DNA of 35,654 nucleotides from positions 1 through 35,654 of IMG/VR virus record IMGVR_UViG_3300030060_006450. One strand, given 5' to 3'. How positions within the stretch are numbered: position 1 is the stretch's first letter; the number at the start of each line of letters is the position of its first letter. The notes beneath the pieces were generated by a model that had not been told where the DNA came from, ran no database searches, and saw nothing but the letters and a program-made list of their open reading frames with translations. The DNA is from a virus. Made by a program: the position numbers and the translations under genes. Of this stretch, positions 1 through 33,752 are shown piece after piece.

Positions 1-1740
1 TGAAACGCCACCTTCCAATTCTTGGCGCATTTCAGCGTCGGCAGCGGCAAATTCAGTGCGAATATCTGCGCGGTCACCTGCAGTTGCAGTTTGTTCAGCC
101 AAGAAGTTTGCATTATTGAGGTTGTCGCCTGCAGCGAGTGTTGTCAGAGTTTGGAGCATATCAGCATCGATTGTGTCGTGCAGATCTTGAACAGCTTGAA
201 TTCTATCAGCAATTTCTGTGTCTACCTTGGCATCAAGAACGTTTTCTGCGTTTTGTGCGCGGGTTTGTTCTGAAGTAACTGCTGTTCTTGCAAGAGCAGC
301 TTCAGCTATAATTTTGTCTTCGAGTTTGCCGAGTGTATCATAATCAGCAGCAACATCGCCACGGATAACTACAAATTCATCATCGAACTTGGTTTCAATG
401 CGACCTTCTTCGTCACTTGCACGATTAACTTCAGTAGCAAGGTCAGCGCGAATGTCATCCTCTTCTGATCTCGCAAGAGCGGCTTCTTCTTGAATCTTGT
501 CTTCCAATTTTCCAAGAGTGTCAAAGTCACCAGCGACATCACCTTTGAGAGCCGCAACAAGGTCGGCGTCTGCAGAGGTAGCAAATGCTTGCGCGTCAGC
601 TTGGGCCTTAGCGACAGAACCTGCTTGGCTTGAATCTCCTTCAAGTACATCTAAGCTGTTTTGTTGAGCTGTTTGGACTGAAAGGATCTGGGTGTCAGCG
701 AGCTTGTAAGCGTCGTTGATTTCTTTGAGTGTGTCAAAATCAACTTCAGCATTTTCAAGAATTGCGTCGAGTCTTGCTTCTTCCACCTGGATCTTATCTT
801 CAAGTTTTCCAAGAGTGTTATAATCAGCACTGACGTCGCCTTCGATTTCAACGAACGCATCATCGAATTTGGTTTCAATGCGAGATTCTTCACCTTGAGC
901 GCGTGATGCCTCTGCCTGCTCTGCGGCGCGTGCAGTAGCAGCTTCTGCTTGGATTTTATCTTCAAGTTTTCCAAGAGTATCGAATTCGCCGCTAACGTCG
1001 CCACGAATAACTACAAATTCATCATCGAACTTAGTTTCAATGCGGCCTTCTTCGGCTACTGCGCGGTCAGCTTCAGAACCGATTGCTGTAGCATTGGCTT
1101 GTTCCGCAGCGCGTGCAGTAACAGCTTCTGCTTGAATCTTGTCTTCTAGCTTACCAAGCGTGTTGAAGTCGGCAGCAACATCACCTCTGATTGCGGCGAA
1201 CTCATCATCGAATTTGGTTTCAATGCGACCTTCTTCGCCTACGGCGCGGTCGATTTCGGAACCGATTGCTGTAGCATTAGCTTGCTCTGCGGCGCGTGCA
1301 GTAGCGGCTTCAGCTTGAACAGCATCTTCCAATTTTCCAAGAGTGTCGAAGTCACCAGCGACGTCACCTTTCAGATCGGAAACTTCTTGAGCCAACTCAC
1401 CACGAAGGGCGGCGCGGTCGTCAGAAGCAACAAGTGCTTCGGCGTCAATATCAGATTCAAGAACAGATTTAACATCGTTCAATTTTCTCATATTGACAAG
1501 AGCGTCATCACTAATTGTCAAATATTCTGATAATGTATATGGTAATGCCATATATCTAAGGTCAGCGAAGTTTGACATGTCGATTGTACCGTATAGTTCA
1601 GAACTAAAACCAGCTGATTGAGCAAGCTCCGTCATAGAAGCAAATTTTGTTCCATCAGCCTTTTTAAGTTCGATATCGATATTATCGGGTCTTGCACGAG
1701 TACGTGCGACTCTAACTAAATTTTTATTTTGTTCAGACAT
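1..1740 (-). CDS. Tail-fibre-like repeat protein, 3' part cut by window edge
   Basis: The frame starts with ATG at 1738-1740 and stays open to base 1, so at least 580 residues are present and the C-terminus lies outside the window. A ribosome-binding sequence AAGGAG lies about 10 bases before the ATG. The first ~115 residues are non-repetitive. The rest is built from recurring blocks with the core DTLGKLEDKIQ, an Ala/Glu-rich helical stretch (AEAATARAAEQANATAI type), GRIETKFDDEF and IRGDV. Six cores are visible. Such heptad-like, Ala/Glu-rich repeats are usual in trimeric coiled-coil shafts of phage tail fibres. The adhesin gene ends 72 bases upstream, so the two form a host-recognition pair. 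The receptor-binding tip, if any, is not in view. Fibre identity is inferred from repeat style and position. Confidence 0.7.
   Translation of the reverse strand, partial: MSEQNKNLVRVARTRARPDNIDIELKKADGTKFASMTELAQSAGFSSELYGTIDMSNFADLRYMALPYTLSEYLTISDDALVNMRKLNDVKSVLESDIDAEALVASDDRAALRGELAQEVSDLKGDVAGDFDTLGKLEDAVQAEAATARAAEQANATAIGSEIDRAVGEEGRIETKFDDEFAAIRGDVAADFNTLGKLEDKIQAEAVTARAAEQANATAIGSEADRAVAEEGRIETKFDDEFVVIRGDVSGEFDTLGKLEDKIQAEAATARAAEQAEASRAQGEESRIETKFDDAFVEIEGDVSADYNTLGKLEDKIQVEEARLDAILENAEVDFDTLKEINDAYKLADTQILSVQTAQQNSLDVLEGDSSQAGSVAKAQADAQAFATSADADLVAALKGDVAGDFDTLGKLEDKIQEEAALARSEEDDIRADLATEVNRASDEEGRIETKFDDEFVVIRGDVAADYDTLGKLEDKIIAEAALARTAVTSEQTRAQNAENVLDAKVDTEIADRIQAVQDLHDTIDADMLQTLTTLAAGDNLNNANFLAEQTATAGDRADIRTEFAAADAEMRQELEGGVS
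319..1349 (-). repeat. Six degenerate in-frame repeats in the fibre gene
   Basis: The DNA encoding the core ELGK/DTLGKLED recurs with its reference codon at 319, 502, 799, 961, 1144 and 1327. Spacings are 183, 297, 162, 183 and 183 bases, so the regular unit is 61 codons, with one longer and one shorter interval. The repeats are similar at nucleotide level but not identical, which suggests old duplication with drift, or selection on the protein. Confidence 0.85.
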
Positions 1741-5643: not shown

Positions 5644-5681
5644 CAAAAAAAATAAGTCCCGTAAGAAAACTTACAAGACTT
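5644..5681 (-). terminator. Rho-independent terminator after the PrkA cassette
   Basis: On the minus strand AAGTCTTGTAAG (5670-5681) pairs with CTTACGGGACTT (5654-5665) across a TTTT loop. This is a 12-bp stem with two G:U pairs, followed by A and eight T. It starts 37 bases after the prkA stop codon, so it is well placed to end the transcript of the three-gene cassette. Confidence 0.85.
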
Positions 5682-5717: not shown

Positions 5718-7658
5718 TTAGCTATCTCTCCAGAGATTGTTTGAAGCATATTTAATAACTTCATTTGCTGAAGACTCACTGTATCCGTATTCTTCCATTA
5801 AGGTTTGTACCATTTCGTTGTATTTGCCTTGTTGTTTTTTATCTCTAGACTTTGATTTTGTCACAATTCTTGAAATATCACGGACAGAGGCAAGAAGTTT
5901 ATTTTCAATTGCCTCTTTTAGCGGGCCGTAAGAAGTCCAATCAATCTGCTCACCTTTTCTTAATTTAGCGAACATATAAGCTGTAATATCGGCTCTAAAA
6001 TTTTCTCTTGCGGAGCCGATGATTCCAATCTGTTCTTCGATTGATTGTAAGAAATCTTCATCTGCATGCATTTCTTCATTGGTTACCTTGTCTTTGACCT
6101 TGAAGCCATTAACATAAGCCTCGGCGTGATCTAAATAATTGTCAAACAGTGATTCTGCTTGTTCTTGATAGGCGGAAACAAAGGCTTTTGTAATTTCTGT
6201 CTCTAATATCTTTAGATATTCGTCGTGCAACTCTTTCTGGAGGAATGAGAGGTATCTTTCCCTCAAGTCTTCGACAACAACCTGTTCCTTGACTTGCTTA
6301 ATAAGTGCTTCTCGGATTGAAATAGGGGTTACCATATTGTTTTCAGAGTCTGCGACAGCGGCGTCAATGGATTTCATAATAAATCTTGTCGATATGCCAG
6401 TCATCCCCTCATCTCTCACTTCTTCCCTAAGATCATTGATATCAATTTTTTTAATATATCCTTTTTCGACGACCTCTTGACCATTATAAATTTTCATTTT
6501 AGTCATTGGGTCAACCTTGTTGGATGGCTTTAGTCTTGTCAACACTGAAAACATCGCAGCCATTTCTAAAGTGTGAGGTGCAATGTGGGCATCAAAATCA
6601 GACTCATCTAGTAATTTTTTATAAATTTTCTGCTCTTCATTTACTTCAAGGCAATACGGCACATTGACCCTGACAATTCTGTCAAGAATCGCCTCGTTCG
6701 TGTTCTCTGATTTAAATTTAATCCACTCTGCTTCATTACAGTGTGCGAGGATAACACCATCAAAGTAAATCATGGCCCCTTTGCCGGGAGATGGGACTGC
6801 TTTTTCTTGTGTTGCTGTGATCATTGTGTGCAAGAATTCAATCTCGTTCTTGAAAACCTCAACAAATTCAACAATTCCACGATTTCCTACGTTGAATGCC
6901 CCGTTAAGGCTCAAGGCTCGTGGGTCGTCTTCCGGATAGAGATCTAATTTTGAAATGTCTTCTGACCCTATTAGAATGCTTGTGTCTTGAGTGTTTGCGT
7001 CCATAGGAGGAACTACACCGACCCCTCTTCTGCCACGAATTGAAAAACTGGTTTCTTTGACTGGGAATTTCATATAATCGCCACCATATTCCTCTAGTAG
7101 TTTGTGGCGACAGACTGGACAGAGATCACCTTCAACGCGGACGCCGTATAATTCCTGGAATTGATCTCTCAAGCTTCTAGGGATGAGGTGAATGGGTTCT
7201 TCGTTAATCGGGCACCCATCAAGTGCATAAAGTGGACCACTCTGTTCAAGTGCCCGCTTGATGTGTTCAACTAAAGCCGACTTACCCGCACCGACAGGTC
7301 CGAGCAACAAGAGGACTTGGCGGCTTTCTTCACCTTTCATAGCGGCTGAATGGAGGTATCTCATAACTTTTGCCAAAGATCTCTCCATTCCAAAAAATCT
7401 TGTCTGAAAATAGTCATAAGTCTTTACAGGTTCGCCATTAAAAAGAGTATTACAACGAGAGTCGTCCTCTGTCATTCTGGTGATACCTTTGTTTACGATT
7501 GTCTTGTAAAGTCTCTTGTGAGCTAACTGAGAAATTGTCTTGTTTTCCTCTAGTAGCTCAAGATAATCAGAAAAAGTGCCTTTAAACTTTTCTCTTTTAC
7601 TGTCATTCTTGTGCTTTTCAGCTAGTTCTAAAAATTTATTAGTTTTTGATTCTGTCAT
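5718..7658 (-). CDS. prkA: Serine protein kinase PrkA/YeaG family
   Basis: The product has 646 residues, about the length of cellular PrkA/YeaG, and appears complete. It has an N-terminal AAA-like ATPase domain with Walker A GPVGAGKS at about 120-127 and a Walker B-like stretch at about 296-309 (YFDGVILAHCNE), the family's VEFVE and LDRIVRVNVPYCL stretches, and the PrkA C-terminal kinase-like domain (ERYLSFL, ARENFR, QIDWTSY). A CPVC pair near 180-183 is absent from E. coli YeaG as I recall it. Cellular homologues phosphorylate serine/threonine and act in starvation and stationary-phase responses. The chosen ATG lies 2 bases after the spoVR stop with GGGAA in front; an in-frame ATG at 7671-7673 would add five residues. 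It is the third gene of a coupled cassette and is followed by a terminator. Its substrate here is unknown. Confidence 0.93.
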   Translation of the reverse strand: MTESKTNKFLELAEKHKNDSKREKFKGTFSDYLELLEENKTISQLAHKRLYKTIVNKGITRMTEDDSRCNTLFNGEPVKTYDYFQTRFFGMERSLAKVMRYLHSAAMKGEESRQVLLLLGPVGAGKSALVEHIKRALEQSGPLYALDGCPINEEPIHLIPRSLRDQFQELYGVRVEGDLCPVCRHKLLEEYGGDYMKFPVKETSFSIRGRRGVGVVPPMDANTQDTSILIGSEDISKLDLYPEDDPRALSLNGAFNVGNRGIVEFVEVFKNEIEFLHTMITATQEKAVPSPGKGAMIYFDGVILAHCNEAEWIKFKSENTNEAILDRIVRVNVPYCLEVNEEQKIYKKLLDESDFDAHIAPHTLEMAAMFSVLTRLKPSNKVDPMTKMKIYNGQEVVEKGYIKKIDINDLREEVRDEGMTGISTRFIMKSIDAAVADSENNMVTPISIREALIKQVKEQVVVEDLRERYLSFLQKELHDEYLKILETEITKAFVSAYQEQAESLFDNYLDHAEAYVNGFKVKDKVTNEEMHADEDFLQSIEEQIGIIGSARENFRADITAYMFAKLRKGEQIDWTSYGPLKEAIENKLLASVRDISRIVTKSKSRDKKQQGKYNEMVQTLMEEYGYSESSANEVIKYASNNLWRDS

Positions 7659-7660
7659 TT

Positions 7661-8962
7661 TTAAAATTCCCATATTTCATCTTCGATGATTGTTATAAAT
7701 TCCACATTGTCATTCCACAAATAACATATATTGTCGTATACTTTATTTGCGTAAGCTAAATCCAAATCTCGCCCGTCATGTTCATGCTTTAAAAAGAGAG
7801 TATTTGTCTTTCTTTCGTAGTCTTCGACATAAACAATCGGAACTCCATTCAGACCCACACTACTAATTAGAGCGTTCCTGACGCTTTTCCAACCTTCTTC
7901 ATCAGAAATTTCATTAATTGCATAATTTCCCGTATTTTTCTGATACGAATAAGAAAATAAATTCAATTCGTTACACATCTCTTCGTCCAAATATTTACGA
8001 ATAAAAGATTCATCATCATGGGTTTGTCTAACCAGCATACACTCGTCAAAGCCATGCTCTCTTTCTATTTTTTTAAATAAAGAATAACCCAAGTGGTAAG
8101 GATTAACTCTGCCAACTATTGGTCTGACAACTTGATTGTGAGTCTTTAAAAATGCCAAATGGTATTTGTCTGGCAAATTTAAGTCGTACATAATTTTTTC
8201 GTGAATAAGGACTGCCCAGCCTTCGTTCATAATTTTTGTTTGCCCTTGAGGGACAAAATACTTCGATCTTCTCTCGACCATTTCTACCAAGTCCTGTTGC
8301 CAGTCTTCTAAGTCTCTGGCATTTTGGCGAATGAACTCTAATAAATTATATTCTTTTCTAACGAGACCGACATCTAAATTAATTTTGCCTTTTGTCTTTT
8401 CGAAAAGATCTCTTTTCGCATCTTCTTGACTTATTCTATTAATACCTGGTGTTCTGGGTATTTGATACTGAATAGAATGACATGCGTCTAAAATTCTCTC
8501 AACTTTGTCAATTCCAATATTTGGATCTTCAATATATTGCTGTACACGCTTTCCGGCCGACTTAAATCTCGCGATTACATTGTCTGGGTCTGTATGTGCA
8601 AACATTCTGTTGTTCTTAAAGAAGTCAGAGTGTCCGACGCAGTGCGACATTGTTAATAAGTGAGTACTCATTGGGTTTTCGAGCATGAGATAGGCAATCG
8701 AGGGGTTTGAATTAATAATCATTTCGTATGGTAAGCCCTCCATACCCAAATTATATCTTGTTATAGTTCTTTCAAAAGATTTTCCAAATGACCAGTGGCG
8801 ATAGTGGGTTGGTAGCCCTGTATATGCCATGGCACCGATCATTTCATGGTAATTTAATATCTCATATTCTATTGGGAACCAGTCTAAGTTGTATTTTTCC
8901 TTTCCAATGGCACAAATCTCTTCATCCCACTTTTGTAATTCTTTTACTGTCCAGTCTTTCAT
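7661..8962 (-). CDS. spoVR: SpoVR/YcgB family protein
   Basis: The 434-residue product matches the SpoVR family over nearly its whole length. Visible landmarks are HYRHWSFGKSFE, YEMIINSNPSIAYLMLEN, FFKNNRMF, QTKIMNEGWAVL and the VNPYHLGY stretch. It is shorter than E. coli YcgB (about 510 residues), mainly by smaller loops. SpoVR was named for a role in the Bacillus spore cortex; in Gram-negative bacteria it is genetically linked to PrkA and YeaH, with unknown biochemistry. I chose ATG 8960-8962 because GGAGG lies 9 bases upstream and the ATG overlaps the stop of the DUF444 gene (ATGA). A longer frame to 9001 exists but lies within the upstream gene. The product is cytoplasmic, with no signal peptide or membrane segment. 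Confidence 0.93.
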   Translation of the reverse strand: MKDWTVKELQKWDEEICAIGKEKYNLDWFPIEYEILNYHEMIGAMAYTGLPTHYRHWSFGKSFERTITRYNLGMEGLPYEMIINSNPSIAYLMLENPMSTHLLTMSHCVGHSDFFKNNRMFAHTDPDNVIARFKSAGKRVQQYIEDPNIGIDKVERILDACHSIQYQIPRTPGINRISQEDAKRDLFEKTKGKINLDVGLVRKEYNLLEFIRQNARDLEDWQQDLVEMVERRSKYFVPQGQTKIMNEGWAVLIHEKIMYDLNLPDKYHLAFLKTHNQVVRPIVGRVNPYHLGYSLFKKIEREHGFDECMLVRQTHDDESFIRKYLDEEMCNELNLFSYSYQKNTGNYAINEISDEEGWKSVRNALISSVGLNGVPIVYVEDYERKTNTLFLKHEHDGRDLDLAYANKVYDNICYLWNDNVEFITIIEDEIWEF

Positions 8963-10170
8963 CGACTTTTTCCTCCAAATATGTGCTGAAATGATGGCCA
9001 AATATGATTTGGTTTTGATAACTTTACTTTTTTAAATGAATCGTCTGTTATTGGTGTTAGTTTTTTCCACAAATTTGTTGCTTCGCTCTGATTATATCTG
9101 AAAGATTTTGTTAATATTGATAAATCAGACTCCGGATGAGACATGGGGTCAATTTCTGCGTAGCAGATCATTTGGTTTATTTCTTTTAGTTCGGTAAAAA
9201 GAGCGACAGTCTTTGGGTCATCAAAAGACCAGTTTTCGCCGTCGCCAGAATAAAAAGTATATATATTCCAACTCGAAGGATGGTATCTTTTGTTTATGAT
9301 TTCTTTTGTCATTTCCAATGCGGAAGACATAATCGTCCCTCCCGTTGTGCCTCTCTTAAAAAAATCATCCTCATTTACTTCTCTGGCTTCGGTGCAGTGG
9401 GAGATAAAGACAACTTCAATATTGTCATATTTATATCTCAAAAATTGATATAATAAAAAGTAAAAACTTCTAGCAATATACTTTTTGTCTTTTGTCATGG
9501 AACCAGAAACATCCATCAGGAAGAAAATCACTGCCGAGTTGTTCTCTTGCGGTTTTGGCTTCATGTGTTTATATTTTAAATCATCCTCGTGAAATGGGAA
9601 CCTTTCACCGGACTCTGGATCATATGCTCCGGAAGCAATTGCCATTTTTTTACGACGAATTTTTCTTTTTATTGTTTCTTTCTTAGAAAGTTTGGATCTC
9701 ATGCCTTTTTTTCTAAAGCCGCTTCGTTTTAGCTTGTGATCTTTAATAAATTTAAATCTTTTTCTTTCTAAGTCTGGCAATTCTAAGTCTTGAAACAAGT
9801 ATTCTGCTAACTCATCTAATGTTATCTCCACGTCGTAGTATTCATCACCAGATTCATTTGATCCTTTTTTGCCCTGTGCTTTTTGTTTTTGCTTTCCGCC
9901 CTTTCTTAAAACTTGACCTCTTTTTATCTTTTTATCACCTGCCGAACCTGCCTTTTGGTTTTCGTTATTTTCTCCATAAATAAAGTGATATTCTTTAATA
10001 CCCTTGACGGGAATCTTTACTTTCTTTTTGCCATCTTGACCAATAATGGACTCGTCAGCTACCACATCTTTTATGCCCTCTCTAAGAGCTTTGTCTATTT
10101 TTTGTTTATGTCTTTGTCTATCTGCTGCCGAGCGGTCAGCAGATGTTTTATGTTCTCTAAAAATACTCAT
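8959..10170 (-). CDS. yeaH: DUF444 / YeaH (YhbH) family protein, von Willebrand A-like domain
   Basis: The product has 403 residues. The N-terminal ~200 are strongly basic and low in complexity (RKKGMRSKLSKKETIKRKIRRKK type). Residues ~212-390 form the vWA-like part, with a MIDAS metal site: DVSGSM at 220-225, TTGGT near 275-279 and the SGDGENW aspartate at about 310. MSIFREHKTSADRSAADRQRHKQ at the start and YNPxxWNIY-like sequence (YHPSSWNIY) are typical of YeaH/YhbH. In E. coli yeaH follows yeaG (prkA) and both belong to the general stress/nitrogen-starvation response. Its ATG overlaps the stop of the upstream neck-like gene by 4 bases, and its stop overlaps the spoVR start. The cassette is therefore translationally tied to phage structural genes. 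Confidence 0.93.
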   Translation of the reverse strand: MSIFREHKTSADRSAADRQRHKQKIDKALREGIKDVVADESIIGQDGKKKVKIPVKGIKEYHFIYGENNENQKAGSAGDKKIKRGQVLRKGGKQKQKAQGKKGSNESGDEYYDVEITLDELAEYLFQDLELPDLERKRFKFIKDHKLKRSGFRKKGMRSKLSKKETIKRKIRRKKMAIASGAYDPESGERFPFHEDDLKYKHMKPKPQENNSAVIFFLMDVSGSMTKDKKYIARSFYFLLYQFLRYKYDNIEVVFISHCTEAREVNEDDFFKRGTTGGTIMSSALEMTKEIINKRYHPSSWNIYTFYSGDGENWSFDDPKTVALFTELKEINQMICYAEIDPMSHPESDLSILTKSFRYNQSEATNLWKKLTPITDDSFKKVKLSKPNHIWPSFQHIFGGKSR

Positions 10171-10994
10171 ACTATTGTTAAAACCTCTAAAAGAATTCTG
10201 TTACCCGAAGCAATGGGGAAGGAATTAAAAAGAAAACCTTCTTGAACATAATATTCACCGCTGGAAGGGTCGGAACCAAGAGTCTGCCTTTGACCGTTTT
10301 GAAAAACTGCTGCTGCAGCTAGTGGAATTGCTCCAGTAACACTCAAAGTAGAGTTCAAGTTTGTATCTGCTACAATTGTAGAACCGGAAACGTCGTGAAA
10401 ATATATAACACGGACGATACTTTTTTCGTGGTCGTGATAAGGGCCCGACTCGGCATTTGTGAGACCATCGGCATCAACGAGAGAAGACTTTATTTCTTCG
10501 GACATGACAGACATATCCATAATACCACGTCGGGTCCTAATACACTTAGCAGATATCTGAAAAAGGTGGTCTATTTGTCCAAAGAGTTGTCTGTCTTCTG
10601 TCAAGGATACAATTTCATAAAATGAATCACCATATTGAACATAATCTCCCTCCCTTAGCATCAAATCTTGATCTTCGTGGAGCCTTCTTTCGTGAAATTT
10701 TACAGTGATTGATTTTTCTTTGTCTAAGCCATAATTTTCAGTGGTAGTTTTGATGCCGTCAAACTCGACAAGGGCATAAACCCTCACAGGAGGCAAAAAA
10801 GATTTCTCTATCGCTTCACCATATATTGGATGAAAGTTTGTATACTCCATAGAAACTGGCAAATAGACTATTTGTTGACCGACTACTCTCTCTAGGAGTT
10901 CGTCGTTTACTTGCTTTACTAAATTTCTTTCTTTTTCTCCCAAAAATAGCGGAGGAGGGGGATTACTTGGTTTTGACCATTTGTTATCAGACAT
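10167..10994 (-). CDS. Probable neck / head-completion protein
   Basis: The product has 275 residues, soluble, with no signal or membrane segment. A charged N-terminus (GEKERNLVKQVNDELLERVVGQ) is followed by YLPVSMEYTNFHPIYGEAIEKSFLPPVRVYALVEF and a beta-rich middle (REGDYVQYGDSFYEIVSLTED). The pattern 'YGE...K.F.PP..V.A.VE' followed by a 'GD.V.YGD..YEI' barrel resembles head-closure and neck proteins of tailed phages. Its place two genes after the capsid gene supports a connector role, like T4 gp13/gp14, though I cannot say which. It starts 2 bases after the preceding gene's stop, and its stop overlaps the yeaH start. Confidence 0.6.
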   Translation of the reverse strand: MSDNKWSKPSNPPPPLFLGEKERNLVKQVNDELLERVVGQQIVYLPVSMEYTNFHPIYGEAIEKSFLPPVRVYALVEFDGIKTTTENYGLDKEKSITVKFHERRLHEDQDLMLREGDYVQYGDSFYEIVSLTEDRQLFGQIDHLFQISAKCIRTRRGIMDMSVMSEEIKSSLVDADGLTNAESGPYHDHEKSIVRVIYFHDVSGSTIVADTNLNSTLSVTGAIPLAAAAVFQNGQRQTLGSDPSSGEYYVQEGFLFNSFPIASGNRILLEVLTIV

Positions 10995-10996
10995 AA

Positions 10997-11866
10997 TTAA
11001 TATTCCTTCTTATCGCCGACAATCACTCTTTCTCTACCAAATCTTATTTCAGCTGCGGATTCTCGTACTGTAACCTTTGGCTGGTTATCATTTTTATCAG
11101 AGCCCATTAGATATCCTAAAACTTTTAAATTTATTGTTGTTTTAAAGTTTCTTTCCTCTTCTGTAAGGTTTGAGATATTATTTTCTAAACCGAAGTCTCC
11201 TTGAACGAATCCTTCGAATCTATGCCCATCTTTATTTATAAAAAAGTTGTTAATTTGACCTGTAAATGCCATAAATGGAGTAACTATTTCATTCATCTGT
11301 TGCTGATATTCTGTATTTACCGTTAGTTTATAATTTATTACAACATAAGTCGGCAATGGCATTGTTATAGTTTCATATACTACCTTTTCATTCTTAAACG
11401 GAAAAGTTTTTTGTTTAAAAAGTCTTTCTGAATCGGCATTGGCAAAATTAGAAGTTTTTTCTTGCTGGATTCTTCTGGCGACCTTGATTGCGCCGCCCTT
11501 TGCATCGTTCTGGCGAGGGACATGTGACCAAGCAACGCCCTTCATGTTTGGGTCTTTTTCCATACTTGTCCGCTCTATGCTTAGGGCTGGTAATACAAAG
11601 ATATCTTTACTTCTTAAATCTTTATTGTTTTTTGTCTGAAACGACCTTTCGGGCATCGACCAAATTAAAGGAAGTTTCTTAAATCCTTCATTTGTGGTAC
11701 AAAAAATATTAAGTTCCTCGTCTAACCATTCATACAGGGCAAAGTCGATAGTTTCTATCGTAGATGGCATAAAAGTGACCTCTTTCAGTCCAGGAGTTTC
11801 TTCGCCCGGTTTTTTATCTTGAAAATAAGGTCTAAATCCATCATATTGTTTTTTTCTGCTGCTCAT
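10997..11866 (-). CDS. Probable tail-connector protein, possibly tail sheath stabiliser/terminator-like
   Basis: The product has 289 residues. A central stretch (ETITMPLPTYVVINYKLTVNTEYQQQMNEIVTPFMAF) reads 'beta strand, then a helix in which copies are counted toward a closed ring'. It resembles the core of T4 gp15/gp3-type tail completion proteins ('...LPY.l.f.l.i.t.n..d..qi.eqilPfF'). The gene lies between two neck-like genes with gaps of 2-3 bases. The N-terminus contains an aromatic, acidic DFALYEWLDEELNIF stretch. The exact T4 counterpart is unproven. Confidence 0.55.
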   Translation of the reverse strand: MSSRKKQYDGFRPYFQDKKPGEETPGLKEVTFMPSTIETIDFALYEWLDEELNIFCTTNEGFKKLPLIWSMPERSFQTKNNKDLRSKDIFVLPALSIERTSMEKDPNMKGVAWSHVPRQNDAKGGAIKVARRIQQEKTSNFANADSERLFKQKTFPFKNEKVVYETITMPLPTYVVINYKLTVNTEYQQQMNEIVTPFMAFTGQINNFFINKDGHRFEGFVQGDFGLENNISNLTEEERNFKTTINLKVLGYLMGSDKNDNQPKVTVRESAAEIRFGRERVIVGDKKEY

Positions 11867-11869
11867 TAT

Positions 11870-13138
11870 TTACCCTTGGAAAATTATCATTGGAATCTTT
11901 TTCTGAATTGTTTCTACTGCTTCTACTTTTTCAGCATCAACCTTGGCCAACTCAGCGTATGTTAATTGATCCATGATTTCTTTAAGTTCTTCTCTTAGTT
12001 TTTCTTGCTCATCCTTTGCCTGACTCAACAATGTATCAGAATTTAAATTAACAGATTCGCCAGGAATAGGTATTGTCTGAAATTTTCCTCTGATTTGTGC
12101 TAAAGTTTCTTTGGATAAGGCGAGCGCAAAGCGGCGGATCCATTGTTTACCAATTGCATTAATGTTCTCATATGGAATATTGTCAAACGGTAAAGTATTT
12201 AAATTATTTATTCCGTCTGCACCATTGTCATAATCGTCATTGTTTTCCCAAGCTAAGGGCATAACAGAAAAATCTACCCACATGTGATTATAATCTGAAA
12301 GAGTCTGGGGTGCTGGGAATATTCTAAGTTTATTATTCTTTAACTCGTAAGAATAATGAGATAGCCTTGTATAAATATGATCTTCATATGCCATGGCTTG
12401 TAATTTATTTTGCCATGCAGGAACTATTTCAAATGTTGAATCGTCTGTATATTGACCGTAATAGTTTAGATTGCCGACGACATTTAATCCGCCAAAGTAT
12501 CCGAAGAATCTCCACATGGCATTTGGTGTTTTATAATATACTTTCTTTACAATTACTCTCTTGTCTCCAACTACACCAGCATATGGTGCTCCACCGCCGG
12601 CTGGTTCATTTCCTGATGCTGATGATCCAGAAATAATTGCTTGTAAATCGTAGTCTTGTTGACCACGAACGAGATTAAATGATGCAGAATAAATAGGAAT
12701 AGTTCCACCAACATCTGCAGCGGAAGAGTACCTATCTGAAACTCTTTTTGCGTACTCAAACATCACTCTTGGGAATTTTAAGTTGACATTTTCTGGGCCG
12801 GATAATCTCTGACCTCTATGATCGAATGTCCCAGTTGTCTGACCTAAAACATCTGATAAAATATTCTTTGATTGGTGTAAATTTACCAAATAACTGTATT
12901 CCAATACAGCCTCTTGATAATTGGCGTATACGTTTTCTGCTTTTAATTCAATATCTAAGACATCTCCACCAATTTTTCTATATGTATATGCAACCTGATC
13001 AGAAGCTCCTGATAGGAATTGTGAAGAATCGGAATATACATCAAATGGCAGCGTATCTGCGACAGCGGATACAGTACCCGATGCTGGCAAGATTGATTTG
13101 CTCATCTGACTTGCCGGTGTTAATGTTGGAAAAGCCAT
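11870..13138 (-). CDS. Probable neck / virion structural protein
   Basis: The product has 422 residues. The body is rich in Tyr, Asn and Ser with many short beta-like stretches (VYANYQEAVLEYSYLVNLHQSKNILSDVLG; KKVYYKTPNAMWRFFGYFGG). The end has a charged helix (SQAKDEQEKLREELKEIMDQLTYAELAKVDAEKVEAVETIQKK). There is no signal peptide. It is the first gene after the capsid terminator and starts the connector block, so a head-to-tail joining role is likely. I do not recognise a specific family motif. The start is followed by MAFPTLTPASQMSKS, with a purine-rich GGGAGGAA sequence just upstream. Confidence 0.6.
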   Translation of the reverse strand: MAFPTLTPASQMSKSILPASGTVSAVADTLPFDVYSDSSQFLSGASDQVAYTYRKIGGDVLDIELKAENVYANYQEAVLEYSYLVNLHQSKNILSDVLGQTTGTFDHRGQRLSGPENVNLKFPRVMFEYAKRVSDRYSSAADVGGTIPIYSASFNLVRGQQDYDLQAIISGSSASGNEPAGGGAPYAGVVGDKRVIVKKVYYKTPNAMWRFFGYFGGLNVVGNLNYYGQYTDDSTFEIVPAWQNKLQAMAYEDHIYTRLSHYSYELKNNKLRIFPAPQTLSDYNHMWVDFSVMPLAWENNDDYDNGADGINNLNTLPFDNIPYENINAIGKQWIRRFALALSKETLAQIRGKFQTIPIPGESVNLNSDTLLSQAKDEQEKLREELKEIMDQLTYAELAKVDAEKVEAVETIQKKIPMIIFQG

Positions 13139-13165
13139 GCAAATTCCTCCCTAGCATTAAGTAGT

Positions 13166-13206
13166 TTCCAGAAACACAAAACCCCTCTACAAAATTGCAG
13201 AGGGGC
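13166..13206 (-). terminator. Rho-independent terminator after the major capsid gene
   Basis: On the minus strand CCCCTCT (13199-13205) pairs with AGAGGGG (13182-13188) across a 10-base loop, then TTTTGTGTTT follows. It begins 29 bases after the capsid stop codon. A strong GC stem in AT-rich surroundings is a typical end to the abundant capsid transcript, probably with partial read-through to the neck genes. Confidence 0.88.
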
Positions 13207-13234
13207 ATGTAAATTAGTGACTTATTGTTTAAGA

Positions 13235-14944
13235 CTATACTAGGTCAGCAATGATAACCAATCCGTACATATCTGGACGAACCATCTTCTTCGCATAACG
13301 AGTCATCACGCCCTTACGTGGCACGAAGTCCTCTGTTCCGAAGATTGTCGGTGTCATCTGGAGTGGTACATATGGTGCGTAAACGTATCCGCTTTCTAGG
13401 AAAGAAGAACCTTTGCGTCCACAAAGTACTACGTTTCTTGGGAAGTAAGGATCAACGTAAACGTCGAACTTCTTGCTCAAGGAACCAACTCTAACTGCTC
13501 CGACTTGACCACGATCATCATCGTGAGTGACGGAACCACGGAATCCAGCGGTGAACTCAAGAAGGTTTGCAACTTCTGGTGAAACCACGATGAAGTTTGC
13601 TCCGCCTCTTAAGGTCTTACGGTGAATTTGTGCTGAAACGTCGTTGATGGTCTCAACAAGGGTTTCGTACCATTCAGAGACATTACCAGTGAAGTCTGGG
13701 AATGATGCTCCGGTGATAGCTGCGCCAGTTGTTCTGTTTACGAACTTACCCGGCAGACGTGACCAGTAGAGTGTAGATGCGGTTGCACCTTTAACAAGGT
13801 CTTCCAAGATTTCTTGGTCGATCTCAAGAGCGATGTGCTCCGAAAGGATAGAAGTCAACTCAACTTCTGCATCCAAGTTATGGTATGCGTTCAAGTCTTG
13901 AGCCAATTCTGGTGTCCACTTAGCCTTAAGCTTCTTGGTCTTCGCTGTAACAGCAACAGAATCAACCTTGATGTCGATTTCTGGGATTGCTGCTTCCGCT
14001 TCGAGACCCCATTCGGTTGCACCTACAACTGCGCCAACAGTTGCTGCTGCGCCGATGTTGTCATCGATAACGTAGTCCCAGCTTCCAATACCGTCTAGAG
14101 AAGTACTTAGAGCTGCAAGGTCTTCAGAACCAGTAGCTGCCAAGACAACCAAAAGGTTACCAGCGTTTGTTTCGTCATCACGAGTCAAGCGACGTGTGAT
14201 ACGACCTGCACCGAGTGAACCAGAAGCAACTTCATTGATAATTGTTACATAATCTTTGATGTTGAACTGATCGCTAGTAAGGTCAGATAGAGCAATTCTA
14301 GCAACCGCTACATTGAGCCCTTCAAGATCTGGGTCGAAACGAACAAGCTTATCGACACCAGCTGATGAACTGTATGCAGTATCAAGCCAGAAAGTAGTAC
14401 CGGGGTTACCAACAGTACCTGATGCAATCATTGTGGTTGCAGCAGCTGAAGAACCGGTTGGGCTTGAGTAGCCGTTGTTTAGTGCATATGCGCTAAGTTC
14501 TGCGTTACGACCTGACAATGAAACACCGCCAGTAATCTGAGAAGCAACCTTTCCGCCACCGTATACTGATTCACCAGCAAGGTAGTCCAAACGAGTTGTT
14601 GTTTCTGAAGAATATGTGAAGTCCAAGAAGAAAATGAGGCCCGATGGCAAGCTCATTGGCTGAACTGATACAAGATCGTTAGCGATTAATCCGCCGAATA
14701 CACGGCGAACAATTGGGAATGCAACTGCAGAGAATCCTTCGACATCTCCGCCCTGCATTGAAGAAGCTTCGCGAAGAAGTTCCTTTGCTTGGTTTTCAAG
14801 AAGGCAAGCCATACCTTGTTTGGTACGCTCGTTAGTAAGTCCTTCCAAGAGACCTGTCTTTTCCCACTTATTGAGAAGAGCAGCTCCTTCCTTGGAGAGA
14901 TCACGTCTAACAATACCTTCGGTTAATTTGTTAATAATTGACAT
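13235..14944 (-). CDS. 23: Major capsid protein, T4 gp23-like
   Basis: The product has 569 residues, somewhat longer than T4 gp23. The N-terminus (MSIINKLTEGIVRRDLSKEGAALLNKWEKTGLLEG) and the FPIVRRVF.....N.LVSVQPMS.PSG.IFFLDF stretch are typical of gp23-type capsid proteins. So are the later KWTPELAQDLNAYHNLDAEVELTSILSEHIALEID segment and the C-terminal YAPYVPLQMTPTI and RYAKKMV parts. An LRE site before Ala60 fits the (L/I)xE cleavage rule of T4-type prohead proteases, so residues 1-59 are probably removed during maturation. The gene follows the scaffold gene by 16 bases, and GGAG lies just upstream of the start. It is less AT-rich than its neighbours, as expected for a highly expressed gene. 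A GC-rich terminator follows. Confidence 0.95.
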   Translation of the reverse strand: MSIINKLTEGIVRRDLSKEGAALLNKWEKTGLLEGLTNERTKQGMACLLENQAKELLREASSMQGGDVEGFSAVAFPIVRRVFGGLIANDLVSVQPMSLPSGLIFFLDFTYSSETTTRLDYLAGESVYGGGKVASQITGGVSLSGRNAELSAYALNNGYSSPTGSSAAATTMIASGTVGNPGTTFWLDTAYSSSAGVDKLVRFDPDLEGLNVAVARIALSDLTSDQFNIKDYVTIINEVASGSLGAGRITRRLTRDDETNAGNLLVVLAATGSEDLAALSTSLDGIGSWDYVIDDNIGAAATVGAVVGATEWGLEAEAAIPEIDIKVDSVAVTAKTKKLKAKWTPELAQDLNAYHNLDAEVELTSILSEHIALEIDQEILEDLVKGATASTLYWSRLPGKFVNRTTGAAITGASFPDFTGNVSEWYETLVETINDVSAQIHRKTLRGGANFIVVSPEVANLLEFTAGFRGSVTHDDDRGQVGAVRVGSLSKKFDVYVDPYFPRNVVLCGRKGSSFLESGYVYAPYVPLQMTPTIFGTEDFVPRKGVMTRYAKKMVRPDMYGLVIIADLV

Positions 14945-14960: not shown

Positions 14961-15938
14961 TTATTTGTTTTCTTTAATGCCGGCTAGAATTTGCATTCTG
15001 CTTGAAAATTGCGGAATGTCCGTTCTAGCTTCTCTTCTGGGTAAAGTATTAGTCGGTCTTTCGATGGTCTCACGGAGCGATTTTGGCTGTGCTTTACCCT
15101 TCACACTGCCCACTGCGTTTTTAAGAGTTTCAAAAATAACCTTTGCTTCATTAATCGAATCGGCGTTTGACAGAGCTTCGACAACAGTGTTTCTTTGTCG
15201 CTCATTCAAGGAGTTGTCTGTTAAAACTTCGTTCGTGTATAAAAGTCGTGCGTTAGATAAACTTGCTTTTTCGACCTGCTCTTTTAAAACAGAAATGATA
15301 TTTTTCATTTTGCTGTTTTGTTCAGAAAGTCGATCTCTAGCGGCAACTAATTCTTTATTTTGTTCTTCAGCAGCTGTGGCTGAAAGTTGCGCGAGTCTAA
15401 GTTCTTCTTTATATTTCATAATATCTTCTGGAGTACCTGCCCAACCACTTTTTTGTGGTTCGATATCTACAACCAATTCTTCTAAAAGCTCTTCTACGTC
15501 AGAAATTTCTATTTCTTCTTCTAGTGTCGCTTGAATGTCGGCGGTTGGGACTTCCATTTCGGAACCCAAAGAAGGAGGTTCGGATGGTAAAGTATCCATC
15601 AACGACTCATGTGGTGCTGGATCTCCGACCAAATCTTCTTCGGCAGACGATAATGCATTAGCCATGTCCTTAAGGTCTTCCATGTTCAAAACAATTTCGG
15701 AATCATCATCGGCGATTTCGTCATCAAATGCATTTGGAATACTATCTTCTAGTGCATCCGACTCATCGTTTTGTTCTGGGGCCTCGGTGGGCTCTTCGTC
15801 TTCTTGTTCAAAAAGGTTTTCTACAACCTCTTTAATATCTGCAGAATATTTATTTAAAATTGCTGCTTCTGCATTTTTAATGGCTGCTTCTTTTAGTGCG
15901 GCGGCATCAATAATAGCTTGTTCTAATAATGAGGACAT
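14961..15938 (-). CDS. 22: Prohead core scaffold protein, T4 gp22-like
   Basis: The product has 325 residues, strongly acidic in the middle (EQEDEEPTEAPEQNDE and similar runs, about 45-160). A long predicted coiled coil (about 170-250: KEELRLAQLSATAAEEQNKELVAARDRLSEQNSKMKN...) is followed by a basic C-terminus (PRREARTDIPQFSSRMQILAGIKENK). Position directly before the capsid gene, acidic coiled-coil composition and a basic tail that could contact the capsid protein fit gp22 scaffold proteins, which fill the prohead and are then degraded by gp21 protease. Several (L/I)xE sites occur, including LLE at the N-terminus. GGGAG lies before the start. Confidence 0.85.
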   Translation of the reverse strand: MSSLLEQAIIDAAALKEAAIKNAEAAILNKYSADIKEVVENLFEQEDEEPTEAPEQNDESDALEDSIPNAFDDEIADDDSEIVLNMEDLKDMANALSSAEEDLVGDPAPHESLMDTLPSEPPSLGSEMEVPTADIQATLEEEIEISDVEELLEELVVDIEPQKSGWAGTPEDIMKYKEELRLAQLSATAAEEQNKELVAARDRLSEQNSKMKNIISVLKEQVEKASLSNARLLYTNEVLTDNSLNERQRNTVVEALSNADSINEAKVIFETLKNAVGSVKGKAQPKSLRETIERPTNTLPRREARTDIPQFSSRMQILAGIKENK

Positions 15939-16034: not shown

Positions 16035-16457
16035 TTAGACCCCTGCGGATCCAGACCAATTGTCAACAATTTCTTTAGTTTCAATTCCCGTTAATCCAGC
16101 GTAAACAAAAGTCTTGGTAGAAGTTCCTTCGAGCCAAACCTGAGTTACTTTCCACCTATAGTCTGAATGTGTAATATTTGGCTCCGAAAGGCCAGCGGCT
16201 GGGATTTCAATATAGTTAGTGCCGCCTTGAGAGGGCAAGCCATCTCTTGAAAATGCAAATTTGATGCTCTTGCCGCCGCCATTATCATTATTTTTAATAG
16301 TAAGCCAACTTGTTACTGTCGGAAATTCAACTTTAAACGGCTCTGTGCCTCCATCCGAGGCTGCATTGAGATCTATAGAGCCAGTAATAAATGGCTTACC
16401 AGAAACCTGATATGATGCTGCGTTATTTAGACCTGATTTGTATTGATAAATTGACAT
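16035..16457 (-). CDS. Small virion-type protein, possible capsid decoration protein
   Basis: The product has 140 residues, beta-rich, without signal or membrane segment. It opens MSIYQYKSGLNNAASYQVSGKPFITGS and continues with paired strands (EFPTVTSWLTIKNND, IKFAFSRDGL, NYIEIPA) and ends KVTQVWLEG...TFVYAGLTGIETKEI. The fold looks like a compact beta sandwich, as in head decoration or small structural proteins. It sits between bS21 and the scaffold gene. The identity is inferred from composition and place. Confidence 0.5.
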   Translation of the reverse strand: MSIYQYKSGLNNAASYQVSGKPFITGSIDLNAASDGGTEPFKVEFPTVTSWLTIKNNDNGGGKSIKFAFSRDGLPSQGGTNYIEIPAAGLSEPNITHSDYRWKVTQVWLEGTSTKTFVYAGLTGIETKEIVDNWSGSAGV

Positions 16458-25851: not shown

Positions 25852-28800
25852 TTATACTACTACGGAAGCATATCCGTCTATCTTATCAATTGTTATTTGC
25901 ATATCTACACAATCTTTTAGTGTGTCAAGATGCGAGATAAGCAATACTTTTTTGAAATAATTCTTAATAATTGCAAGTATGTCTACAAAGCCTTGCATGT
26001 TTTCTTCATCGAGGGAGGTTCCAGGCTCATCTAATATAAAAATGTCTCCCTTTGGCAAGCTGGATACACTTAGTAGAGCCAGCCTGATTGCCATGGCTGC
26101 GATTGTCTTCTCTGCGCCGGACCCCATTTCTAAAGGCCGTGGATCGTAAGATGGGTGCCTGATGAAAATATCTAATCTGTTTTCGTCGTCTTCAAAAAAT
26201 ACCTCAAAATCAACAATATTTGCCAAAATTTTTGCAATCTCCTCATTGATTATTGGCAATTTCTTACGAATTACTTCAAATGCGATGCCGTTTGACTTCA
26301 TACAGGTCATATATAAGTCATATGCTGATATCTCTGATTGCAAAGACTCAAAAGAATTTTTTTGCTCTTCTAAGTTTGTTAATTTCTGCTCTAATGATCC
26401 TACTGCCTTATAAAGTTCCATAACGTCGCTATTACAAGATTCACTTTTGTTCTTTGTTGATTGTTGTTTGACTTTTAAGTTTTTCAATTCAGAATTTAGA
26501 GTTTCTAAATTTTCAATTGCTTCTTTATTTTGCTCATATTCCGAAAGTTCATTTTCGAGCTTTTCTACCTCGTTTAATAAGTTGGTTATACAAGATTTAT
26601 TTTTGTCAATTTTTAATCCATAATTAATAATTTCGTTAGATAACCTATTTCTTTCACCTATAATCTCGTTATAGACTGAAATTTTCTTTTCGATCAAATC
26701 TGGATTTAACTCTACTATTTCTTCTTTCAGAGAAGAAATGGCTTTTTCAAAATTTAAAATCTTTTCCTTATTCATTGGAAGAAGCTCTTTAGATTTGTAG
26801 GCGTCTTTGACAAATGGATTTTCGCAGCAATAATCGCAATCTGGATCATATTCGTGATCGTCGAGCATTTTTATTTTTTTATTATTGTGCGCCAAATCTT
26901 TGTTTTCTTCATTCAATTTAAGATTCAAGACATCAATATCCCCAGACAAGCTATCAATTTTTGATTTTTTGGCAAATAATTGATCCCTATCATAAGAACC
27001 AAGAAAACTTTTAATGGTGTCATAATCTTTTTCTGACTTTTCTTTGTTTTTCTTTAAATTTCCTATTTCCTCATTGGCGCTTAAAAGTTGTTGTTTTTTA
27101 TCTTCCAAAAAGGTTTTGACTTTTACCACGTCAATAACTTCGGCAGGGATAGAATTAATTTTTTCTTCAATATTCTTAATATCTAAAAAATATTGCTCCA
27201 TTTCTTTTTTATATTCTTGACACTTTTCTTTCTTTTCCCTTAAATCAAGTTCAGATTCGGCTAAATCTTTTTGTGCGTCTGTGATTTCTTTATTGAAATC
27301 TTTGTCACTCATTTTTTTCAGTGCCCCTCTTGTGTCTGTAGAATCCTCTTTTGCTAATTTGTATTTTGTTTCGAAGAATTTAAGATCCAAAAAGTTTGCT
27401 AAAATTTCTTTTCTCTTTGTAGAACCCTCTTTAATAAAAGATAGGGAATCCATCTGGCTGGCCATAGAAGAATATAAAAAGTCGTCCAAGGTTCCAAAGA
27501 CCTTTCTTATGTTTTTATCCGTATCATTTCTGGACAATCCGTTGAGGCTTTCTGAATCTTGTTCTATTGCAGAATAGACTGAAAAATCTACGTTTGTTTT
27601 TGCTTCGGTTGTCTGTTTTCCTTTTGAATTCTTAATATATTTAGAGGCAGTCCTTTCAATTGTATAATCTAAATCTCCAATGGAAATAATTGCTTTTCCC
27701 AAGCAAGATTCTTTATTCTGGTTGATTACATTAAGATTTTTTCTATCATTCTTTGACGTAGAATTAAAAACCGTAAATAATAAAGAATCAATGATGCTTG
27801 ATTTTCCGGAATAGTTCTTTCCGAAAACTCCAATAATCCCATCAAGATTCTCAAAATTTACAGAATTAGATTCTCCGTAGTTAAAAAGATTATCAAACTC
27901 TAAAGACTTTAATTTCCAATTTACATTTCTGGCAATCTGTTCATTTTCTTCAGCTATTTTATTGTATTTTAAATTAAGATCCAGAACTTGCTTTTCTACA
28001 TCTTCGTCCAATTCATAATCTTTTAAATATTCCTTAATAAGTCTTTCTTGAACGTCGATGTCTCGAAGATTTTCAACCAACAAATTACCATTTTCATCAG
28101 TAACATTCCCCTTTTTTCCAGACGCTCGATTGAAAAAAGATATACTTTCTGGCTTAAAACGCCTTTTGGCAACGTCAATAGCCTTTCGCATGGTATGTAG
28201 CGGCAGATTATTATCTGAAATCAATCTCAAGCGAGCCTTGGGGGGAATGCTTGTATTTTTTGGCATTTTTCCCTTTGGCGTCAAAACAATCGTCACAAAG
28301 GGTCTGGGATTTTTAAGCTCGATGTGTCTGCATTTAAAGCTTTCTTTATCTTCAATTTCCCAAATTAAAAATCCCTTATCATTAGTTTCACCATGGTTCT
28401 GCTGAACAGTAGATCCGCAGTATCGAATGCGGCCTTCTTCATCAAGACACTGATTGGTTTTGTGAATATCTCCAAGAAAAGCATAATCGTGCCCCTCGAA
28501 GATATCAATTGGGTGCTCGCCGTGTTCCATTACCCATCCGGTATCAGTTTTTACACCGCTAATAGACCCATGATATAGGGCAATATTTATTTTATTATCA
28601 TCTGCTGGTTTAACCCAATTTTCTTCATCGAATACAGATAAAACATTTATTGCCACAGAATCGCCCAGGAGCGTTTCTCCAGAATTCTTAAGTAAATGAA
28701 GCCTTGGATGCTCTAAAGCTTCAGCAATGGGCGTTAGTGCGTCCTGGCGGCTAGAATTTTTTAGGTTCCCATCATGATTACCCAAAATAACGTATGTTGG

Positions 28801-29013
28801 GGCAATATCAGCCAGCGAGCGAAAGAACTTAGTACACATTTCTACAAATTCTGGTGAAATTTGTGTTTTTGTGTGTGCAATATCTCCGCAGTGAATAATA
28901 TAGTCTACCTTTTCTTCTTTCAAAACTTCATAAAGTTTATCAAAAACAGTTTTGTATTCATAATGGAATTTTAGATTTCTGATGTGAGTATCAGCAATAT
29001 GAGCAAACTTCAA
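25852..29013 (-). CDS. Fused Mre11-Rad50 (gp47-gp46 / SbcDC) recombination nuclease
   Basis: One 1053-residue frame holds both subunits. Residues ~1-345 are the Mre11/SbcD/gp47 phosphoesterase: ADTH (7-10), HCGDIAH (41-47), GNHDG (79-82), LYHG (147-150), LGDIHK (180-185). Residues ~365-1053 are the Rad50/SbcC/gp46 ATPase: Walker A GKNYSGKSS (398-406), a long coiled coil with the zinc-hook motif CDYC (726-729), signature GSGAEKT (964-970) and Walker B IFILDEPGTSLDE (991-1003), then the LLISHLD H-loop. In T4 these are two genes, 47 and 46. The complex resects DNA ends for recombination-dependent replication. No frameshift or stop lies in the joint. The start is 10 bases after the primase stop. 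Confidence 0.95.
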   Translation of the reverse strand: MKFAHIADTHIRNLKFHYEYKTVFDKLYEVLKEEKVDYIIHCGDIAHTKTQISPEFVEMCTKFFRSLADIAPTYVILGNHDGNLKNSSRQDALTPIAEALEHPRLHLLKNSGETLLGDSVAINVLSVFDEENWVKPADDNKINIALYHGSISGVKTDTGWVMEHGEHPIDIFEGHDYAFLGDIHKTNQCLDEEGRIRYCGSTVQQNHGETNDKGFLIWEIEDKESFKCRHIELKNPRPFVTIVLTPKGKMPKNTSIPPKARLRLISDNNLPLHTMRKAIDVAKRRFKPESISFFNRASGKKGNVTDENGNLLVENLRDIDVQERLIKEYLKDYELDEDVEKQVLDLNLKYNKIAEENEQIARNVNWKLKSLEFDNLFNYGESNSVNFENLDGIIGVFGKNYSGKSSIIDSLLFTVFNSTSKNDRKNLNVINQNKESCLGKAIISIGDLDYTIERTASKYIKNSKGKQTTEAKTNVDFSVYSAIEQDSESLNGLSRNDTDKNIRKVFGTLDDFLYSSMASQMDSLSFIKEGSTKRKEILANFLDLKFFETKYKLAKEDSTDTRGALKKMSDKDFNKEITDAQKDLAESELDLREKKEKCQEYKKEMEQYFLDIKNIEEKINSIPAEVIDVVKVKTFLEDKKQQLLSANEEIGNLKKNKEKSEKDYDTIKSFLGSYDRDQLFAKKSKIDSLSGDIDVLNLKLNEENKDLAHNNKKIKMLDDHEYDPDCDYCCENPFVKDAYKSKELLPMNKEKILNFEKAISSLKEEIVELNPDLIEKKISVYNEIIGERNRLSNEIINYGLKIDKNKSCITNLLNEVEKLENELSEYEQNKEAIENLETLNSELKNLKVKQQSTKNKSESCNSDVMELYKAVGSLEQKLTNLEEQKNSFESLQSEISAYDLYMTCMKSNGIAFEVIRKKLPIINEEIAKILANIVDFEVFFEDDENRLDIFIRHPSYDPRPLEMGSGAEKTIAAMAIRLALLSVSSLPKGDIFILDEPGTSLDEENMQGFVDILAIIKNYFKKVLLISHLDTLKDCVDMQITIDKIDGYASVVV

Positions 29014-29023
29014 ACTTATTCTC

Positions 29024-29959
29024 CTATAAAGAATTTATGGCTTCGTATAGCCCGTCAATGTCGTCCACATAGGGGGCATTATTTGATAATAATTGAACTT
29101 CCTGTTTTGTCATTTCTCCAAGATCTCTTTGATCTTGATATTTTATTTGTCTTACTTCTATTCCGTATTTTAAAATTAATTTTCTGATTGAATTTGTCTT
29201 TTTTGTGGCATCCGGATCTAGAGCTAAAAGAACTGGAGTATCATTTTGTAGAATTTTTTTAAAAACCTTAGAAGTTTCACGGACGGTAGACCCTAGAATT
29301 GGAACTGCATTATTGGCTTTTATGGCATCAAATACACCCTCTACAATTGTTATTTCCCTGTCGAAATCTAGATACAGCTCATTAAAAACTATATCTCGAC
29401 TAACTGAAGGATTTAAATATCTCTTATAGTTCTCTGCATATGTCCTGGCAATGTAATAATTTAAATTTCCTTCTAAATTAAATGACGGCACGATTATTCT
29501 GTCTTTAAATCTCCCAGAGTCACAATATCCAATCTTCCATCTTAATATATCAGAACGTCCGATGCCGCGTGTTGTCAAGTAGTTCATTGCAGCCTTATAA
29601 GATCTAGAATTAGATGGCCGCGTTAGTGTTTTAAAACCCTCTGGTATTTCTAATATGGTTTCCCTTTCTTCTTCCTTTTCCTCTTCTTGAAAAAGAAAAT
29701 TAATTTTACTTAAATCTTCAAAATTTCCAGTTAACTGCTTCCAGCGCTCTAACTGCCTAGAATCTCCAAACCTTTTAATTAAGCGAAATAAGCTCTTACC
29801 TCGCGCATCACATATCCAGCATTTATAAACATTTTTTTCAACATTAACAGAAAATTTATTTTTGTGATGACCACAGTATGGGCACGTAAAAAGATACTCA
29901 TCGTTTGATTTGTAACTTCTTCCAAGAATGTTATGAAGTATGGAAAGTTTTTCATTCAT
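29024..29959 (-). CDS. DNA primase (zinc finger plus Toprim)
   Basis: The product has 311 residues. An N-terminal zinc-binding domain has CPYC at 26-29, His31/32 and CWIC at 47-50. The Toprim part shows TIVEGVFDAI (Glu207) and LLALDPDA (DPD at about 248-250). It is the length of a free-standing primase such as T4 gp61, without a helicase domain, and would make RNA primers on the lagging strand. The ATG at 29957-29959 is chosen; a GTG at 29975-29977 would add six residues, and neither has a good ribosome-binding site. It follows the resolvase gene closely. Confidence 0.88.
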   Translation of the reverse strand: MNEKLSILHNILGRSYKSNDEYLFTCPYCGHHKNKFSVNVEKNVYKCWICDARGKSLFRLIKRFGDSRQLERWKQLTGNFEDLSKINFLFQEEEKEEERETILEIPEGFKTLTRPSNSRSYKAAMNYLTTRGIGRSDILRWKIGYCDSGRFKDRIIVPSFNLEGNLNYYIARTYAENYKRYLNPSVSRDIVFNELYLDFDREITIVEGVFDAIKANNAVPILGSTVRETSKVFKKILQNDTPVLLALDPDATKKTNSIRKLILKYGIEVRQIKYQDQRDLGEMTKQEVQLLSNNAPYVDDIDGLYEAINSL

Positions 29960-29983
29960 ATCCTTAATATAACACACTATTTT

Positions 29984-33671: not shown

Positions 33672-33752
33672 TGAAAATTTTCCTTTTAAAAAAACGGTTT
33701 TTTATATATTAAATAGTTTGTTTTTAACGATTTTGCAAAAACATTTTTCTAT
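33672..33752 (-). other. Intergenic spacer with candidate promoter
   Basis: These 81 bases between two structural genes are over 80% A/T. They contain ACTATTTA at 33710-33717 and an A/T-run flanked CCG, but no strong hairpin. Confidence 0.4.
33710..33717 (-). promoter_or_regulatory. ACTATTTA element, third intergenic copy
   Basis: It lies 38 bases upstream of the ATG at 33671, in AAACAAACTATTTAATATA. Its spacing is close to that of the copy before the scaffold gene (36 bases). Other exact copies inside genes (24606, 33926, 17962) show the word also occurs by chance in this AT-rich genome. Confidence 0.35.

Follow-up and report, generated by a model that had tools for sequence, protein, structure and literature searches.

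The stress module formed by PrkA, YeaH and SpoVR is widespread in bacteria, and its biochemistry is not yet settled. The module is encoded by yeaGH and ycgB in E. coli and by clusters of prkA, a yeaH-type gene and spoVR in Bacillota. The E. coli yeaGH operon is transcribed from sigma-54 and sigma-38 promoters (PMC6299236) rather than from a phage late element, and YeaG damps the transcription of costly pathways in starvation (PMC4664914, PMC6299236). Viral members have been described as single genes: spoVR as an auxiliary gene in viromes of the ETNP oxygen minimum zone (PMC8940887), and SpoVR/PrkA in the Ralstonia jumbo phage RsoM2USA (PMC8504454). In their sections on these genes, the two reports suggest sporulation or cell-cycle roles and leave gene order, operon and timing unaddressed. 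The cultivated Thermus phages Lalka8, MN1, phiLo and phiYS40 contain all three genes in the order yeaH-spoVR-prkA, with an extra gene before prkA in phiYS40, whose three cassette genes are YS40_056, 057 and 059. In Lalka8 the cassette directly follows the portal and minor head genes and has 4-nt overlaps within it; the immediate upstream neighbors in phiYS40, MN1 and phiLo carry no structural annotation. The main text of PMC5683454 gives no early and late classes for phiYS40. In T4, late transcription requires gp55 and the promoter TATAAATA (PMC3014915).

A stress cassette at the end of a neck operon

We analyzed a 35,654 bp contig from an uncultured virus (the window), a single fragment with nearly all of its genes on the minus strand. 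The phage is marine and T4-related, and its neck (head-tail connector) operon ends in three bacterial stress-response genes, yeaH, spoVR and prkA (Table 1). These host-type genes are probably produced late rather than for early takeover of the host, because the cassette is joined to the neck operon behind a conserved late-type promoter sequence.

Table 1 Features of the neck-cassette region, in order of transcription
Feature	Position	Strand	Evidence
Rho-independent terminator after major capsid gene	13181..13206	-	Stem 13206-13181, covariation
AACTACTTA, candidate late promoter element (-10-type) of the neck-cassette unit	13158..13166	-	ACTAnTTA invariant in 15/15 relatives
neckC, head completion / head-tail adaptor protein	11870..13138	-	phrog_211 head-tail adaptor Ad2, E 2e-11
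neckB, T4 gp15-like tail terminator	10997..11866	-	Low-confidence AlphaFold model (pLDDT 51); Foldseek best matches T4 gp15 4huh/4hud, E 3e-6
neckA, T4 gp14-like neck/stopper, variable C-terminal domain	10167..10994	-	AlphaFold pLDDT 65; Foldseek best matches in text
yeaH (DUF444, von Willebrand A domain)	8959..10170	-	PF04285 3e-107; MIDAS DxSxS, T, D kept
spoVR / ycgB	7661..8962	-	PF04293 3e-115
prkA / yeaG (AAA+ ATPase, PrkA C-terminal domain)	5718..7658	-	PF08298 1e-148, PF06798 4e-80
Terminator-like stem-loop closing the unit after prkA	5654..5681	-	12-pair stem, then ATTTTTTTTG

The three protein families are those known from E. coli and Bacillota; here they adjoin one another at full length, with the MIDAS residues of YeaH and the Walker A motif of PrkA (GPVGAGKS) intact. 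A search of solved structures returned 9xip as a homologue of PrkA (E 7e-100) and no relatives for SpoVR or YeaH. Substitution patterns show the cassette to be under strong purifying selection: in the closest pair, dN/dS of its three genes is 0.013-0.022, below that of the capsid gene; dS is saturated in most other pairs.

The neck assignments rest in part on AlphaFold models built from alignments of relatives, of moderate (neckA) and low (neckB) confidence. The 275-residue neckA product best matches the T4 portal-neck-tail structure 9mkb and the gp13-gp14 structure 9lu5 (E 8.5e-5 to 3e-4). The modeled neckA thus resembles T4 gp14 and the modeled neckB resembles gp15, and these best matches agree with the gene order. 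Alignment divides neckA into a conserved core of ~165 residues and an exchangeable C-terminal domain. Loci L024 and L025 have two tandem copies of the gp14-like gene, one short (~170 residues) and one long, the latter including the C-terminal domain. Where the cassette is missing from the neck site (L026-L035, G009 and G014), the order is neckC-neckA-neckB instead of neckC-neckB-neckA; attachment of the cassette therefore goes with a swap of neck genes.

The original prediction that the cassette order is unusual was borne out. All 76 three-gene loci in a bacterial collection read prkA-yeaH-spoVR (79 loci in total, the others being two with prkA only and one prkA-yeaH). A scan of viral contigs returned 532 PrkA-encoding stretches, and every complete three-gene locus among the best 80, which were kept, reads yeaH-spoVR-prkA; one contig begins inside spoVR. 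The phage cassette is thus a variant in order that still belongs to the same protein families. Arrangements with prkA first were found in the huge phage LR745206 and in Enterobacter phage LAU1. The only apparent exception in the bacterial collection, L071, was set aside as a phage contig because its gene neighborhood matches that of the viral contig L012. L071 (NHDW01000006.1, 305,838 bp), which had been assigned to the bin ‘Methylococcaceae bacterium TMED69’, is probably a jumbo phage that was misbinned. A quick PrkA tree, in which the Thermus phages have long branches, places the window-type phages and L012/L071 in one clade and the Thermus phages (~34% identity) in another; both are reordered, and the tree is compatible with one or two origins of the reordering. 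About a quarter of the kept loci lie on the neck operon; the remaining ones are located elsewhere or are too short to show their position. Only one clade has the cassette linked to the neck operon.

A late-type element before the neck genes and before unlinked yeaH

The terminator that the original prediction had placed after the capsid gene is real: across 15 relatives 96.3% of cells in the stem are paired, 4 pairs are changed on both sides, and the covariation score was reached by 0/500 shuffles. The same prediction held that there is no promoter between this terminator and prkA. This was not right, as the late-type motif AACTACTTA lies directly after the terminator, 19 nt before neckC. Upstream-motif counting in a 167 kb relative (G001) had yielded two classes, CTTGACA/TATAAT and ACTATTTA. 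The exact octamer ACTATTTA is enriched in intergenic DNA, on the coding strand only, in the window, G001, G003 and G005 (p 1e-3 to 8e-9). The form ACTA(C/T)TTA, with C or T at position 5, is enriched in the same manner in the window and relatives (p 8e-5 to 8e-10) and in two further genomes (7e-8 and 7e-9), making six genomes or contigs in all. In relatives this short promoter-like element recurs ahead of the scaffold, neckC, tail sheath and tail tube genes, as expected of T4-type late operons. The window copy before neckC is the C variant (ACTACTTA), which is rarer than ACTATTTA. We infer that the motif acts as a promoter. Other intergenic copies of ACTATTTA in the window, at 33717, 16489 and 15982 (-), precede a gene of unknown family (32742-33671), a small gene (16035-16457) and a scaffold-like gene (14961-15938), respectively.

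The resemblance to T4 extends to a gp23-type capsid, a gp55-family sigma factor and a short -10-like element before structural genes, but the element here is AACTA(C/T)TTA rather than TATAAATA. The T4 sequence was considered as the window element and rejected: it has 97 matches with at most one mismatch where 62.6 were expected, but each exact site is either intragenic or on the wrong strand, and the 13139-13235 gap upstream of neckC, where the sequence is AACTACTTA, holds no TATAAATA. A protein of G001, encoded at 31772-32491, matches the late sigma transcription factor family phrog_234 (E 5e-6, a weak match but the best in the library scan), and a match of this kind, weak but consistent, occurs in 10 of the 11 related genomes searched. 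The gp55-family factor is thus found in relatives, the window itself being only a 35.7 kb fragment, and by profiles only. With phmmer, searches of G001 for gp55 and T4 replication proteins gave no significant match except gp47; homologues of gp43/44/45/62, present in T4, were among those without a significant match. The late sigma factor would be the protein that reads the motif.

The best independent evidence for late control is the presence of the motif ahead of yeaH where cassette and neck genes are unlinked. Of 49 distinct non-neck loci, 10 have ACTA(C/T)TTA within the 75 nt upstream of yeaH, against a background of 0.0077 for such an interval (P about 5e-12, although related sequences are not fully independent), and the exact motif is absent there in the other 39. 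All ten loci belong to one clade with ~75% PrkA identity, in which the cassette lies far from the neck genes. G009 has the motif before neckC, tail sheath, tail tube and, ~70 kb away, yeaH; G014 has it before scaffold, neckC and sheath, with the variant ACTAATTA near yeaH. In L183, L188, L189 and L192 only 7 nt separate the end of the motif from the yeaH ATG, and no clear Shine-Dalgarno sequence is present; a promoter there would give a nearly leaderless message, which speaks against the promoter reading.

Late-type control would therefore be seen in two arrangements, neck-attached and unlinked, which is much stronger than an overlap alone. The claim of late expression in the original prediction is supported on these grounds, and late transcription of the cassette is well supported by sequence, because the motif stands before structural genes, relatives encode a late sigma factor, and the motif recurs ahead of unlinked yeaH. 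Late timing is proposed for the window's clade and the clade with 75% PrkA identity. It may be clade-specific, because distant phages (L012/L071 and phiYS40) keep the cassette among non-structural genes, namely helicase, NUDIX, PhoH or nucleotide-metabolism genes.

This placement in distant phages would also suit a set of early or middle host-takeover genes residing in a late operon and expressed from an unrecognized internal promoter, which could be of a type other than sigma-70 or the late motif. We consider this unlikely. Between positions 5000 and 16000, 28 promoter-like sigma-70 sites were found against 28.2 in shuffles, so there is no excess and none stands out within the unit. Across 13 relatives, the stretch from neckC to prkA has no sigma-70-like site at a conserved position, and the unlinked relatives carry the late motif before yeaH, not a sigma-70 site. 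The spacing between neckA and yeaH, -4 to +12 nt, has no room for either a promoter or a terminator, and the same holds for the tighter junctions within the cassette. The strong sigma-70 promoters of G001 (CTTGACA/TATAAT) cluster at 1-31 kb and 114-167 kb, with a few outliers in the structural region. The window has a single strong sigma-70-like promoter (CTTGACA, TATATT), on the coding strand at 29994-29965 (-). It stands before a primase gene (29024-29977) and an SbcD/SbcC-like fusion gene (25852-29013), both of early type and both located inside the late head/tail module.

Gene junctions

The junctions lie where they had been predicted. The TGA stop of neckA lies inside the ATGA at 10170-10167 that starts yeaH, and the yeaH stop lies inside the ATGA at 8962-8959 that starts spoVR, so that both pairs overlap by 4 nt on the minus strand. 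The prkA ATG at 7658 is 2 nt past the end of spoVR (7661); starting instead at a second ATG in frame, at 7673, would give an overlap of 13 nt with spoVR. Among all cassette carriers of the clade that have these neck genes, neckA and yeaH are spaced as given above, yeaH and spoVR by -4 or -1 nt, and spoVR and prkA by +1 or +2 nt.

Overlaps of 4 or 1 nt between stop and start, as in termination-reinitiation pairs, couple translation experimentally and are enriched among subunits of complexes (PMC10666635). The proposal that the cassette is translationally coupled to the neck gene is plausible at the -4 junctions. As a distinguishing feature it fares less well, since such spacing is ordinary (of the window's 32 same-strand pairs, 19 have a spacing of -8 to +12 nt) and yeaH of some relatives has a Shine-Dalgarno sequence of its own. 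With one type of neckA C-terminus, the ATGA junction comes with a distant yeaH Shine-Dalgarno sequence (11 nt in the window); with the other type, yeaH has its own, in relatives with a spacing of 0 to +12 nt. The spoVR gene has its own strong GGAGG. The conserved trait thus appears to be co-transcription rather than coupling.

Approximately 40-60% of adjacent same-strand gene pairs in these genomes are equally tight. Since tight junctions are this common, a single overlap says little, and the tight junction by itself was dropped as a sign of late timing once the base rate had been measured. This base rate would fit a reading in which placement and spacing are accidents of a compact genome that say nothing about regulation. 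Such a reading is quite improbable in our view: the junction is kept although the neckA C-terminus has been exchanged, and the late motif turns up again where the cassette is unlinked. The informative part of the junction is its conservation across all carriers, and the motif, the sigma factor and the unlinked yeaH are better evidence for lateness than the overlap. In L163 and L164, yeaH and neckC are each broken into two reading frames, perhaps through sequencing errors or decay.

A probable late unit and its possible role

We consider it likely that the cassette is the promoter-distal half of one late transcription unit. The unit would begin at AACTACTTA, continue through the gp13/Ad2-like, gp15-like and gp14-like neck genes, yeaH, spoVR and prkA, and end at the terminator. 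After the onset of replication, a gp55-family late sigma factor would steer host RNA polymerase to AACTA(C/T)TTA. Ribosomes would cross from neckA to yeaH and from yeaH to spoVR by way of the 4-nt overlaps, presumably by reinitiation, giving a linked supply of the VWA-AAA+-SpoVR set.

The original prediction also raised the possibility that the cassette products are packaged into the virion and enter the next host together with the DNA. The position behind a gp14-like gene, the late-type regulation, and the placement behind portal and minor head genes in Lalka8 would fit this, but we found no support for packaging and regard it as very improbable: neither terminus is extended in comparison with homologues of bacterial type or from non-neck phages (PrkA and YeaH align end to end, and the SpoVR Pfam domain starts at residue 3), other phages keep the cassette far from structural genes, and adjacency to a neck gene is not evidence of packaging.

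For the late unit, the balance is about even on a broader proposal, that phages have domesticated the AAA+/VWA/SpoVR module as a reordered late cassette, with a late promoter supplied by the neck operon or of its own, which acts at assembly and not in early takeover. Action in the assembly phase would, for example, keep the host energized but growth-arrested, or remodel protein complexes in virion assembly. If the cassette acts as YeaG does in E. coli, its most likely effect would be to keep the host tolerant of starvation while virions are assembled in nutrient-poor sea water. The whole module, in reordered form, is carried by many marine phages (the 532 PrkA-encoding stretches in viral contigs), and two clades have it behind a late-type promoter. 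Should the module act late, the use of auxiliary host genes would extend beyond early takeover, and the previous reading of viral spoVR as a ‘sporulation gene’ would need revision. For this uncultured group of phages, the late element also offers a simple sequence handle by which late genes can be told from early ones. At the far end of the window, positions 1-1739 (-) hold a long open frame with degenerate LGKLEDKIQAEA-like repeats, probably a coiled coil, which is probably a fiber gene running off the contig.
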